Below the pieces are notes generated by a model that was not told where the DNA came from, did no database searches, and saw only the letters and a program-made list of their open reading frames with translations. DNA of 64,000 nucleotides from Gracilinema caldarium DSM 7334 (GTDB taxonomy: Bacteria; Spirochaetota; Spirochaetia; Treponematales; Breznakiellaceae): the NCBI RefSeq assembly GCF_000219725.1, contig NC_015732.1, positions 868,001 through 932,000 of the forward strand, given 5' to 3'. Below are positions 44,586 through 52,678 of the stretch, one piece after another (positions within the stretch are counted from its first letter, which is position 1; the number at the start of each line of letters is the position of its first letter). The position numbers were made by a program, and so were the translations under genes.

Positions 44586-45659
44586 ATGAAAAAACGAATG
44601 GTTTCAGCATCCGATGTGGCAAAGCTCGCAGGGGTATCTCGAACAACCGTATCCTTTATTTTAAATAATACCCCAGGGAAACACATCAGTGAGGCAACTC
44701 GACAGCGGGTGCTGCAAGCAGCAACTGCACTGGAATATGTTCCCGATGAAGATGCGGTGAGTGTGGCCCGGAGAACCCACTTTACCATCGGCTTTTTTAT
44801 CAGCCATTCAAGTTCTATCTTTACCGATGCCTATATTATTAGGTTGATTGATGGCATGGCGCTGGTGTTCAACAAACACCGATGCCGGCTTGTTTTGCAA
44901 CCCTTACGGCAATCACAGACCAATTATGTGGAACTGGTTCGTTCTCAATCACTAGATGGAGTTATTCTTATCAACACCCATACGAATGATCCGGGTATCT
45001 TTGAGTTGGAACAGGCGGGTATTCCCCTAGTAGTGATTGGTTCTGTAGAAGGGCTCCACATTCCTCAGGTTGATATCGATAATACTGCTGCTGCCAGGGA
45101 AATGGCTGAACATCTTATATCATTGGGGCATTCCAGGATCGCCATGATTGTGCATGCACCGGTTTCTTATTATGCTGCAGCCCATCGTCTTGCAGGCTAT
45201 ACTGCGGCTCTAAATGCTGCAGGATTACAGGTTCGGCAGGAATATATCAAAATTGCGGATTTTACCGAAGCTTCAGGTTATAGAGCTATGCGGGAACTCC
45301 TCGACGTAAAAGAAAGGCCCACCGCAGTGTTTGCAGGTAACGATGTGGTAGCCTATGGTGCCATGCAGGCAATTCAGGATACGGGCTTGTCTATCCCTGA
45401 TGATATATCTCTCGCTGGTTTTGATGACGATTATCTTTCCCGTTATTTAAACCCGCCGCTCACCACGGTTACCCAACCTGCGGCCGGCCTTGGTGAAGCA
45501 GCAGCACGTTTGGTCCTTAAACAAATATTTTCTCCATCACCAAAAACAAATATGACAGAGCTTAATACTTCGGATGCTTCAAATATTCATAGAATTATTT
45601 TGCCCACGGTGCTTGCACTACGGGAATCTTGCAGGAGTCTACAGCATGAGCAGCAATGA
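44586..45659 (+). CDS. LacI-family regulator of the disaccharide operon
   Basis: A 357-residue LacI/GalR protein. Helix-turn-helix SASDVAKLAGVSRTTVSFIL, hinge-like EYVPDEDAVSVARR and effector domain with IAMIVHAPVSYYAA and GFDDDYLSRYLNPPLTTVTQP. It sits between the permease and the GH65 gene and shares the operon, so the palindrome at 41232-41255 is its likely operator, giving feedback control. The GH65 gene begins 14 bases before its stop. Confidence 0.92.
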   Translation: MKKRMVSASDVAKLAGVSRTTVSFILNNTPGKHISEATRQRVLQAATALEYVPDEDAVSVARRTHFTIGFFISHSSSIFTDAYIIRLIDGMALVFNKHRCRLVLQPLRQSQTNYVELVRSQSLDGVILINTHTNDPGIFELEQAGIPLVVIGSVEGLHIPQVDIDNTAAAREMAEHLISLGHSRIAMIVHAPVSYYAAAHRLAGYTAALNAAGLQVRQEYIKIADFTEASGYRAMRELLDVKERPTAVFAGNDVVAYGAMQAIQDTGLSIPDDISLAGFDDDYLSRYLNPPLTTVTQPAAGLGEAAARLVLKQIFSPSPKTNMTELNTSDASNIHRIILPTVLALRESCRSLQHEQQ

Positions 45660-48600
45660 TCAATATGAATGGAAAATCATCGAAAATTCCTGGAATAAAA
45701 AAAAACTCGGCAAAGACGAAACCCTCTTTACGTTGGCCAATGGTCACCTTGGTTTACGGGGAGATTTTGATGAACCTGAACCGGCTTTTCATCGAGGAAC
45801 CTATATCAATGGCTTTTTCGAAAAGGAACCCATCGTATATGGCGAAATAGCCTATGGTTATGCAGAACATCATGAAACGATTCTGAATCTTCCTGATCCA
45901 AAACAGGTTCGACTCTATGTAAATGAGACAGAATTCCGCCTCGATCAGGTTCAATTGGGATTTTACCAGCGATATCTGGATATGAAACATGGGCTTCTCG
46001 TCCGGGAACTTGAAGCTCTTCTTCCAAATGGCTGCAGTATACGGTTAAAAAGCCGACGTATTGTAAGTTTTAGCCGAGAAACCCTCGGTGCTCTGGAATA
46101 TCAGTGTACACTCTTAAAAAGTCCTGAGAACAAACCTGTATCCATCCGTGTGGAATGTCCGCTGGAAGCCCTTGCTTCGAACCGAAAAGCTGAAAAGGAT
46201 CCCCGGGTCGGATCAAAATTTTCCCGGCACCCCTATCGAATAAGTTCTCTAAGTGTTGATGAACATTCTGCAGCTTTAAGCCTTGAGACCCATCGTAGTG
46301 GTCTTGCAGTAGGAATGGTACTGCACTATCAAATGGTTGCTCATAATGATATGAAGGCTTCCTATAAGCGTTCTGATCATACTATTGTCCATAATTGGGA
46401 AGGTGTTCTGATCCCTGGGGGAACTTTTACATTATATAAATATTTTTCTTATAATATGGGAAATGCAGGTGAACAGGATGTTCTTCAATACCAAAATAAA
46501 CAGGTTATTCAAAATGCCTTGGCTGCTGGTTATAATCAGTTGGTTCAAGAACAGCATGAGTATCTTAAGGCCTTCTGGAATCATGCAGATATTCTCATAG
46601 ATGGTGATCCGGAGATACAACAGGCAATTCGTTTTAATATTTTTCATATTCTGCAATCTTCTGGCCGCTCAGGAAAAACCAGTATAGCTGCGAAGGGATT
46701 AACCGGTGAAGGGTATGAGGGCCATTATTTCTGGGACACTGAAATTTATGTATGTCCCCTCTTTACCTATACCAAGCCCGAAATTGCTCGCAGCTTGCTG
46801 GAATATCGCTATGCCATACTCGATAAAGCCCGGCAGCGGGCTCACACCATGGCAGAAAAAGGGGCTCTCTTCCCCTGGCGTACTATTGATGGTGAAGAAA
46901 CCAGTGCCTACTATCCTGCGGGAACAGCCCAGTACCATATCAATGCGGATATTGTTTATGCTATGGAAAAATATTGTATGGCCTCTGGGGACCGGGAATT
47001 TTTATATAACCAGGCGGCTGAGGTTGCGGTAGAAACTGCTCGGCTCTGGTTATCCCTGGGGCACTTTGGACCGGATGGAAAATTCCGTATTGATTGTGTA
47101 ACTGGTCCTGATGAATATACTGCCTTAGTCAATAATAATGCGTACACGAACCTCATGGCAAAAAACAACCTTCTTTTTGCTTGTAAGACCCTGGGACAAT
47201 TACAAAAAGATGAGCCTAATCTTTATAAACGTTTTTGTGAGCGTCTTGCGATACAACATGATGAACCTGAGCAATGGGAAAGGGTTGCCCATTCGATGTA
47301 TATCCCCTTCGATGCAAAAACAGGCATTTATCCCCAGGATGATTCTTTTATGCACAAGGAACCCTGGCCCTTCGACACAACCCCGCGGGATAAGTACCCC
47401 CTTTTGCTGCATTTTCATCCTCTGGTAATTTACCGACATCAGGTTCTGAAACAACCTGACCTTGTGCTTGCCCAGTTCCTGCTTTCTGAACAATTTACTC
47501 TGGCAGAAAAGATTCGAAATTACTGGTTTTACGAAAAGCTGACCACCGGCGATTCCTCTCTTTCCCATTGTATCCAGAGCATCATGGCTGCAGAGATTGG
47601 AGATGAAACAAAGGCCTATGATTACTTCCTGAAGACGGTTCGAATGGATCTGGATGATGTTCATGGCAACAGTCAGGATGGTATCCATACTGCCGCGATG
47701 GCCGGGAGTTGGCTCTCAATTATCTATGGTTTTGCGGGGTTTCGGGATCGTCCTCGCCAGGGAACCGATGTGCGGTACTCCTTTAATCCCAGATTGCCTG
47801 CCCAATGGAAACGGCTCGTAGTTTCTTTACAATTAGAAGATTATATCCTTAAGGTTGATGTAGGTCGTCACGTGGTACAGTACAGTTTATTAGAAAAGGA
47901 TTCAGAGACTAAGCTGGCTGCTTTAGCTGTACAGTCCAAAGATGAGCACACTGACTTGAAAGGTCAGTCAGCAGGTGAATTAAGGGGTCTTCCCATTGTA
48001 CATCGCAACCAATTGCTCGCCCTGTATCCAGGCGATTCGGTGACGATATCTCTTAAACCTGTTTTGCGTGCTGTTATGTTTGATTTAGATGGAGTCATAA
48101 CTGATACTGCCCGTCTCCATTTTAAGGCCTGGAAACGTCTTACTGATGAGCAGGGCTGGTCCTTCGACGAAAAATTAAATGAAAACCTAAAAGGAATTTC
48201 CCGGATCGGCTCATTAGAAATTATCCTAAACTATAACAAAGTATCCCTTACCCCTGAAAAGAAACACCTATTTGCTGAACGGAAAAATAGTTACTATAAC
48301 GAATTACTTGTTGATCTTGGGCCCCAGGATATACTGCCGGGCATTCAGGAACTACTTATGGAATTAGGGAAAAAGGGTGTAAAGCGAATGATTGCTTCGG
48401 CAAGTAAAAATGCACTTCGCATTATTAACCAATTGCAATTAGGCCCGATTCCTGGTCCATATTTTGAAGGCATAGTGGACCCTGATTCTGTAACTTGTGG
48501 TAAGCCAGATCCAGAGCTTTTTCTACAAGCTTCAGAACGAGCTAATGTTGATCCTAGGGATTGTATTGGCATCGAGGATGCTCAGGCTGGTATCGACGCA

Positions 48601-48723
48601 ATTAAGGCTGCAGGGATGATTGCCATTGGAGTTGGGCAGGGTCTTAAGCATGCGGATAAAACTATACATGATACAAGAGAACTTTCATATTCTTTTTTAG
48701 AAAAAGTTTTTGAGAGATACTAA
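45646..48723 (+). CDS. GH65 disaccharide phosphorylase fused to beta-phosphoglucomutase
   Basis: A 1025-residue two-enzyme protein. The first 790 residues are a GH65 phosphorylase (maltose, kojibiose, trehalose or nigerose type): N-terminal domain with ENSWNKKKLGKDETLFTLANG, catalytic barrel with HYFWDTEIYVCPLF, general acid Glu490 in GPDEYTALVNNNAYTN, and the C-terminal SLSHCIQSIMAAEIG. From about residue 808 a HAD-family beta-phosphoglucomutase follows, with nucleophile Asp813 and Asp815 (MFDLDGVITD) and the late IEDAQAGIDAIKAAGM. Together they turn a disaccharide plus phosphate into glucose and beta-glucose 1-phosphate, then glucose 6-phosphate. ATG 45646 lies after AGGAG; the 24 codons upstream belong to the LacI gene. 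The exact disaccharide is not decided. Confidence 0.93.
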   Translation: MSSNDQYEWKIIENSWNKKKLGKDETLFTLANGHLGLRGDFDEPEPAFHRGTYINGFFEKEPIVYGEIAYGYAEHHETILNLPDPKQVRLYVNETEFRLDQVQLGFYQRYLDMKHGLLVRELEALLPNGCSIRLKSRRIVSFSRETLGALEYQCTLLKSPENKPVSIRVECPLEALASNRKAEKDPRVGSKFSRHPYRISSLSVDEHSAALSLETHRSGLAVGMVLHYQMVAHNDMKASYKRSDHTIVHNWEGVLIPGGTFTLYKYFSYNMGNAGEQDVLQYQNKQVIQNALAAGYNQLVQEQHEYLKAFWNHADILIDGDPEIQQAIRFNIFHILQSSGRSGKTSIAAKGLTGEGYEGHYFWDTEIYVCPLFTYTKPEIARSLLEYRYAILDKARQRAHTMAEKGALFPWRTIDGEETSAYYPAGTAQYHINADIVYAMEKYCMASGDREFLYNQAAEVAVETARLWLSLGHFGPDGKFRIDCVTGPDEYTALVNNNAYTNLMAKNNLLFACKTLGQLQKDEPNLYKRFCERLAIQHDEPEQWERVAHSMYIPFDAKTGIYPQDDSFMHKEPWPFDTTPRDKYPLLLHFHPLVIYRHQVLKQPDLVLAQFLLSEQFTLAEKIRNYWFYEKLTTGDSSLSHCIQSIMAAEIGDETKAYDYFLKTVRMDLDDVHGNSQDGIHTAAMAGSWLSIIYGFAGFRDRPRQGTDVRYSFNPRLPAQWKRLVVSLQLEDYILKVDVGRHVVQYSLLEKDSETKLAALAVQSKDEHTDLKGQSAGELRGLPIVHRNQLLALYPGDSVTISLKPVLRAVMFDLDGVITDTARLHFKAWKRLTDEQGWSFDEKLNENLKGISRIGSLEIILNYNKVSLTPEKKHLFAERKNSYYNELLVDLGPQDILPGIQELLMELGKKGVKRMIASASKNALRIINQLQLGPIPGPYFEGIVDPDSVTCGKPDPELFLQASERANVDPRDCIGIEDAQAGIDAIKAAGMIAIGVGQGLKHADKTIHDTRELSYSFLEKVFERY

Positions 48724-51468: not shown

Positions 51469-52653
51469 CTATTTTACTGCCAGATACGCTTTTATAACTT
51501 CTGCACAGTTGTTGTGATTGATCTTAACAATTCCCATTTCTCGTTTTGCATTATCTGGTGAATCCGATGCATGGGCAGTGTTAACCATGACATTACTACC
51601 AAATTCGCGACGGACTGTTCCCATGGGAGCCTTAAGCGGATCAGTTGGTCCAAGTACATCCCGGATCTTATTAACCGCATTTTCGCCTTCATAAATAAGT
51701 ATCATACATTTAACCGAACCGGGCTGATTCATTTCTTCTACTGGGCACTTACTAGGTTTTTGCCCCGACATAAACTCAACAATTTGTTCAAATTGATCAA
51801 GAGCATATTCAACCCCAAAGTTTTCAGTAAGAGCTTTCTCTGTGGTTTCGCTCAGGCTAATTTTAAATTCTGCTTCCAATAGTTCTTTAGCCTTTTTACC
51901 AAACACAGGGCTGAGTTTATTTTTTAGGGCATCCTTTACCGGTCCATAAAATTCGAGGGCTTCGGCAATAGAAAACCGATGTACTTTTATTGCGATGATA
52001 CGCAAACCGGTACGGGAGAACATATCGATGATGGTCCCTGGGCGGGAAGAATTATATTTCCAGTTATCAGGTTTTAGAATGACCAAGGTTCGTTCAATCT
52101 TTGAAGGATCCTGATATACTACGTTTTCAATGATATTAGGCTGATCTTCAAGGAATCGTGCGAAGAGGGCCAGGTTCTGATCTGCCGCTTCCTGACTGCG
52201 TGGTGTTAAAACTGCAGGTTCCAGGTAAGTTACTTTGCTTGGATCATTAGGATCAACAATCATATCCGCATAGGTGTCCCTGATGGTTTCACCGGTAATC
52301 GATTCAATCCCCATGTTTTCCGGATAAAGGGCGCCGACAATATCAGAGAGTTTCCGAACCGCATCGGTACCCCGGAAAAGTAATAGTAACGAGCGATGTT
52401 TTCGACCCCCAGAAGGGGCTAGATGGTTGAGCACATAATCTGCAAGCAGGTCTGCTGCTTTCGGATTTGCGGGATCTTTTTGATTGCGTATTAAACCGGC
52501 ATATTCCTTTACAAAGGCTTCGTCAGGGGCAATCATCTGGGCGCCTACCAATTCGAGATCCAGGCGAGATAGTAGGCGGGCAATCACACCACCGGTCCGG
52601 CTTTTTGCAATAGTGTAGGGGGTAACCAAAACGTATGAAAGGGTTTGTTCCAT
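51469..52653 (-). CDS. Tandem nucleoside-diphosphate-kinase-domain protein
   Basis: A 394-residue protein, more than twice the size of a usual NDK (about 150). The second half is a recognisable NDK: RTLVILKPDNWKYNSSRPG at about residues 188-206, an internal insert, and the active-site block NTAHASDSPDNAKREMG with His361. The first half (1-185) looks like a diverged copy: SYVLVTPYTIAKSRTGGVIARLL matches the NDK N-terminus and LLLFRGTDAVRKLSDIVGA the middle strand, but no N-x-x-H-x-S-D-S is present. It should make NTPs from NDPs through the C-terminal half, while the first half may be regulatory. AGGAG precedes the ATG, with a good promoter further upstream. Confidence 0.85.
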   Translation of the reverse strand: MEQTLSYVLVTPYTIAKSRTGGVIARLLSRLDLELVGAQMIAPDEAFVKEYAGLIRNQKDPANPKAADLLADYVLNHLAPSGGRKHRSLLLLFRGTDAVRKLSDIVGALYPENMGIESITGETIRDTYADMIVDPNDPSKVTYLEPAVLTPRSQEAADQNLALFARFLEDQPNIIENVVYQDPSKIERTLVILKPDNWKYNSSRPGTIIDMFSRTGLRIIAIKVHRFSIAEALEFYGPVKDALKNKLSPVFGKKAKELLEAEFKISLSETTEKALTENFGVEYALDQFEQIVEFMSGQKPSKCPVEEMNQPGSVKCMILIYEGENAVNKIRDVLGPTDPLKAPMGTVRREFGSNVMVNTAHASDSPDNAKREMGIVKINHNNCAEVIKAYLAVK

Positions 52654-52678
52654 ATATAAAAACTCCTATAAAGATTTA

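Follow-up and report, generated by a model that had tools for sequence, protein, structure and literature searches.

What is the role of a bacterial protein in which two nucleoside diphosphate kinase (NDK) domains follow one another in a single chain, one of them apparently live and the other apparently dead? NDK is a near-universal enzyme that balances the nucleotide energy supply of the cell. The question is raised by an open reading frame of 394 residues in Gracilinema caldarium DSM 7334, lying in the stretch of 64,000 nucleotides (positions 868,001 to 932,000 of contig NC_015732.1) that we analyzed and call here the window. This frame consists of two NDK domains in tandem. The whole protein matched the Pfam family PF00334 with 108.8 bits, and this was the sole family listed at E-values up to 10. 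The features of the gene are given below in window positions.

51469..52653, minus strand: tandem NDK gene, 394 amino acids, ATG start, stop codon included (open reading frame and spirochaete survey)
52129..52653, minus strand: N-terminal half, residues 1-175, a putative NDK-fold pseudo-domain without the catalytic His (Pfam, hhalign profiles, structure model)
51526..52104, minus strand: C-terminal half, residues 184-376, NDK domain with the catalytic residues (PF00334 match, alignment)
51796..51942, minus strand: helical insert in the C-terminal half, residues 238-286 (model and alignment)
51571..51573, minus strand: catalytic His361 within NTAHASDS of the C-terminal half (sequence, alignment)
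52219..52221, minus strand: Glu145, invariant in 105/105 rows, at the strand end where the NDK catalytic His sits (register taken from secondary structure only)
52663..52667, minus strand: AGGAG, likely ribosome-binding site, 9 bases before the ATG (by reading)

The C-terminal half: catalytic set and insert

The protein comparison was based on 105 aligned rows (101 distinct). They comprise the 28 rows of alignment A1, where the window protein is joined by 27 further full-length rows of 55-81% identity to it, and 77 of the best 80 contig loci; three of these loci (L040, L041 and L088) were left out, and some rows represent one gene present in two collections.

The C-terminal half alone reached 93.4 bits against PF00334, above the curated cut-off of 27, and its profile aligned with the profile of canonical spirochaete NDKs at an hhalign E-value of 7e-29. 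For the residue check we assumed that the NDK set consists of the catalytic His plus the nucleotide-binding K, Y, R, T, R and N. The residues K194, Y236, R331, T337, R348, N358, H361, S363 and E372 were each present in 105/105 rows, and D364 in 100/105. Catalytic activity as an NDP kinase is accordingly what we would predict for this half, which keeps the full catalytic set. The Asp three residues past the catalytic His is replaced by Ala or Ser in five double NDKs (L008, L042, L070, L085 and L095), four of which, all except L085, come from assemblies where a second copy was seen. With the NCBIfam models the double protein scored at most 100.8, where the equivalog cut-off is 155, and all six listed models remained below their own cut-offs.

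The preliminary description of this locus had noted the NTAHASDS motif together with an insert, and both are there. The insert, between Gly237 and Gln287, measures 49 residues in 103 of the 105 rows and 48 in the other two. In the full-length model (pLDDT 84.8, pTM 0.84) it is part of helices 229-263 and 269-296; residues 345-357 of this model, just ahead of the active His, have pLDDT under 50. Mean column entropy was 0.82 bits for the C-terminal half minus the insert vs 1.35 bits for the N-terminal half, so the C-terminal half, insert aside, is the more conserved one.

The N-terminal half: fold kept, catalytic residues lost

The N-terminal half of the window protein matched PF00334 with an E-value of 2.7e-4 and 21.3 bits, which is under the curated cut-off of 27. 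The same family was found at E <= 0.01 in 20 of 28 N-terminal halves, the window protein included, with no other Pfam family listed; one of the 28 exceeds the curated cut-off (28 bits). The N-half profile aligned with that of 27 canonical spirochaete NDKs with an hhalign score of 43.6 (probability 90.5%), while 200 column-shuffled controls had a mean of 13.9, a standard deviation of 2.6 and a maximum of 23.9, and the reversed profile scored 17.7. Aligned with the C-half profile, it scored 35.1 (hhalign probability 56%) against a maximum of 28.9 in 200 shuffles.

The second line of evidence is structural. Modelled alone, the N-terminal half had pLDDT 86.1 and pTM 0.84, and its 50 listed structural matches had Z-scores of 14.3-15.5 over 127-141 residues; for example, 3pj9 was aligned over 131 residues with Z 15.4 and rmsd 2.5. 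By entry title 47 of these matches are NDKs, and the remaining three are ciliary-assembly chains, named by entry title only. An unrelated fold for this half, the outcome that would have spoken against the preliminary description, is ruled out by the model and its structural matches.

Could the resemblance be due to chance, a frameshift artefact or a decaying gene? The sub-threshold Pfam score of the window protein (21.3 of 27 bits) points in that direction. Against it stand the 27 full-length relatives of 55-81% identity, the 47 NDK titles among the 50 listed structural matches and the shuffled controls that were exceeded, and we give this explanation a practically negligible probability.

What happened to the catalytic residues of this half? 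As canonical NDK numbering for the pairings we took K12, Tyr52, R88, T94, R105, N115 and H118, and T11, S103, L109 and R125 were paired with K194, R331, T337 and R348 of the C-terminal half by the N-vs-C profile alignment. The K12 position is occupied by T11 (Thr in 101 and Ser in three of the 105 rows), that of R88 by S103 and that of T94 by L109, the last two being variable, while the equivalent of R105 is retained as R125 in 105/105. Position 51, perhaps the NDK Tyr, is Tyr in 96 and Phe in nine rows. No conserved His or Asn was found at the N-half site in the 105 rows: between residues 136 and 157 a stray His occurs in 29 of them, none conserved and none in the window protein. Glu145, by contrast with such stray residues, is invariant, and its pairing with the catalytic His follows from secondary structure only because the profile alignments end before it. 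The N-terminal half thus keeps the NDK fold and, judged by these alignments, looks dead: the catalytic Lys, one Arg of the two, the Thr and the His are gone.

The claims made earlier from the letters of this DNA have thus stood well. A double NDK with one intact and one His-less copy had been proposed, and the catalytic set lies in the C-terminal half with no conserved His in the N-terminal one; the retained fold pattern of the latter was confirmed by the profiles and by the separate model (best Z 15.5). Structure prediction, suggested there as a check, aligned the N-terminal half alone with NDK structures, and the interpretation of the 394-residue protein as a catalytic domain plus a pseudo-domain is supported.

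Distribution among spirochaetes and beyond

The double NDK was detected in 29 of 392 genomes of the spirochaete phylum, complete in 28 and cut at a contig end in one. The 29 carriers hold 31 copies (genomes G221 and G326 have two each), and 30 of these are full length, the 31st ending at a contig edge. Neither a lone N-terminal half nor a lone insert-bearing C-terminal half was found among the matches listed in this 392-genome survey, the cut contig aside. The protein forms a family conserved among spirochaetes and is no one-off. By their titles, the named members belong among others to Treponema, Sphaerochaeta, Sediminispirochaeta and Gracilinema, and a metagenome-assembled genome (MAG) titled Treponema (Gracilinema) caldarium (L036) has a double NDK 91% identical to that of the window. 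A scan of contigs gave at least 547 confirmed relatives, and among the best 80 of them 79 are labelled spirochaetes and one Desulfovibrio. The latter (L084) is a 3.4-kb MAG contig where two of three neighbour genes fall in clusters common to spirochaete loci; it is probably a misbinned spirochaete contig.

Two further observations concern copy number. In a Sphaerochaeta MAG two double-NDK genes adjoin each other on the same strand (L038:4705-7188), and L049 and L095 are two copies on one contig.

Phages and plasmids yielded no double NDK: tblastn matched 38 plasmid and 13 phage records, none of them over 80% of the query, and the 10 rows listed for each of the two collections match mainly the C-terminal half. 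Nine stretches of viral contigs fit an N-half pattern, and none was confirmed.

The preliminary description had also called for a survey of spirochaetes for a normal short ndk gene, with a divided result. The window genome, a single contig of 3,239,340 bases, does have an ordinary short NDK (G000:C1:540506-540907, 183.4 bits, usual motifs), as do eight other carriers (G209, G255, G262, G304, G309, G348, G360 and G365), but in 20 of the 29 carriers no short NDK was detected and the double protein is the sole NDK found. These 20 genomes, only four of which are single contigs (G324, G356, G369 and G385), fall in four family labels (f1, f10, f12 and f19). Genomes without the double protein have a PF00334 match in 253 of 363 cases; double and short NDKs are thus anti-associated, with a Fisher p of 5e-5 that ignores shared descent. 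PF00334 was matched in 282 of the 392 genomes, and in 12 of 14 control genomes, and since 110 of the 392 have no match at all, a missing short NDK is no proof that the double protein does its job.

The canonical NDKs of spirochaetes have a peculiarity of their own. KPD is the usual form of this motif in canonical NDKs, and 19 of the 27 spirochaete sequences (L001, L116-L120 and L123-L135) have KPG instead.

For some NME proteins a role as protein-histidine phosphotransferase or scaffold has been proposed. The double NDK might serve mainly in this way and leave metabolism to the short NDK where one is present. The nine genomes that keep both proteins, that of the window included, would agree with such a division of labour, and so would the ciliary and gamma-tubulin-ring roles of NME7, the nearest architecture, as given in PMC13256974. 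The 20 genomes with no short NDK and the invariance of the full catalytic set argue the other way, and we regard this reading as quite improbable.

Origin and gene neighbourhood

From 16 of the 28 N-terminal halves, 16 of the 28 C-terminal halves and the 27 canonical NDKs we obtained a tree in which each group lies on one side of a branch, with support of 100/100 for the N-terminal halves, 98/92 for the C-terminal halves and only 83/81 for the canonical group; the program warned that the long N-half and C-half branches meet, so the order is unsure. Since the N-terminal halves, the C-terminal halves and the ordinary NDKs of spirochaetes each fall into a group of their own, the tandem duplication is probably old, as far as these sequences allow a judgement. 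The tree lends no support to a recent origin of the double protein by duplication of the short NDK found in the same genome.

In the window the double NDK gene is convergent with a gene for an FKBP isomerase, which is frequent nearby in relatives as well (35 neighbour slots). A gene for an EF-G-like GTPase occupies 24 neighbour slots in other loci. In general the neighbourhoods vary, with EF-G-like, FKBP isomerase, transporter and various other genes, and no constant operon partner was found among 78 of the 81 loci with an anchor open reading frame, the same three loci being left out as above. This variation without a fixed partner fits a stand-alone housekeeping gene. At 45574-48723 the window also has an open reading frame of 1049 amino acids, which by reading resembles a fusion of a GH65-type disaccharide phosphorylase with a C-terminal HAD beta-phosphoglucomutase.

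Proposed function

The explanation that we consider probable is a working NDP kinase in which the live C-terminal half is accompanied by the dead N-terminal half as a built-in dimer partner, and which has replaced the short NDK in many spirochaetes. According to this scheme, an old tandem duplication would have given one catalytic domain, now the C-terminal half, and one pseudo-domain, now the N-terminal half. Judging from its invariant residues, the C-terminal half would move the gamma phosphate from an NTP to an NDP via phospho-His361, in the ping-pong manner of ordinary NDKs. The N-terminal half, its fold kept, is predicted to pack on the C-terminal half as the NDK domains of FAP67/NME7 do, and the match with FAP67 suggests that the chain forms a pseudo-dimer with a single active site. 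Gene presence would agree with the double protein having superseded the short NDK in many spirochaetes.

The dead half is perhaps an additional regulatory site. If the N-terminal half acted as a regulatory sensor, an effector would bind in its altered pocket (TPY, SRTGG, ETIRDTYAD and YFEPAV) and switch the C-terminal half on or off; this is compatible with the pseudo-dimer kinase and adds a function to it. The most conserved stretches of the N-terminal half do include the equivalents of K12, R105 and, presumably, H118, and E145, P146 and V148 are each present in 105/105 rows. A plain packing partner would not obviously need such conserved stretches. These residues may instead serve oligomer contacts, however, and the seven catalytic-equivalent positions taken together showed no significant excess of conservation (random sets were as conserved in 1308 of 10000 draws) because the equivalents of R88, T94 and N115 vary; three pairings in this test are uncertain, that of Tyr52, which shifts by one between alignments, and those of Asn115 and His118, which lie outside the aligned part. 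An earlier pocket test with p of 5e-12 is not trustworthy because its segments were picked after the invariants had been seen. On balance a sensor seems possible and rather doubtful. We would call unlikely a more specific version, namely a bacterial NME7-like allosteric NDK which replaced the ordinary enzyme in several spirochaete families and whose dead half forms a second ligand site, with the invariant Glu located about where the catalytic His would be, that senses a metabolite and gates the live half.

If the built-in dimer partner is the correct explanation, what could be learned from it? According to PMC13256974, NDKs form hexamers or tetramers made of head-to-tail dimers. A natural pair joined in one chain, with only one of its sites live, would cleanly test the need of NDKs for symmetric oligomers, and it would also test why dead halves of enzymes are retained.

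Comparison with known systems

With the canonical bacterial NDKs (PF00334; NCBIfam PRK00668 and relatives) the double protein shares the catalytic residues of its C-terminal half. It differs from them in having two domains per chain, one of which looks dead, in its separate group in the tree and in the insert of the C-terminal half, which is about 40 residues longer than the canonical linker. None of the papers listed in our literature searches, which covered few subscription journals, described a tandem NDK of bacteria in which one half is dead.

Among single NDKs listed in the search with the full-length model, the long chain of Pyrobaculum aerophilum NDK (1xqi, 195 residues) stands above the others, with Z 13.8 and the longer alignment of 152 residues, although it has a single domain. 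Residues 220-315, the insert region, had no match among PDB sequences, so an insert common to 1xqi is not shown. Most single-NDK rows of this search span residues 1-4 to 387-393 and thus do not tell which half fits, while 3pj9, 4ane and 1k44 cover the N-terminal half only.

By the predicted model, FAP67/NME7 of eukaryotic cilia comes closest in architecture among the solved structures. FAP67 (6u42_5O), which is the NME7 of algae, was aligned with both halves together, over 272 residues between model positions 1 and 382, with Z 20.5 and rmsd 3.7, and two further chains of ciliary doublets, which from the entry titles we take for NME7, gave Z 20.6 (9cpc_4V) and Z 19.1 (9e78_0W). The identity between FAP67 and the double NDK is 15% over the structural alignment. 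NME7 is reported to have an active NDK domain A and an inactive NDK domain B in one chain (PMC13256974), preceded by an N-terminal DM10 domain (PMC13256974, PMC7024210). Compared with this description, the double NDK has no DM10 (only PF00334 is listed, and the NDK matches of its N-terminal half start at residues 1-4), and the order is reversed, the active domain coming first in NME7 and the catalytic set second in the double NDK. The double NDK and NME7/FAP67, eukaryotic proteins of NME group II, have in common two NDK domains per chain, one live and one apparently dead, in a similar predicted arrangement. This tandem layout, known from proteins of eukaryotic cilia, is now seen in bacteria as well.
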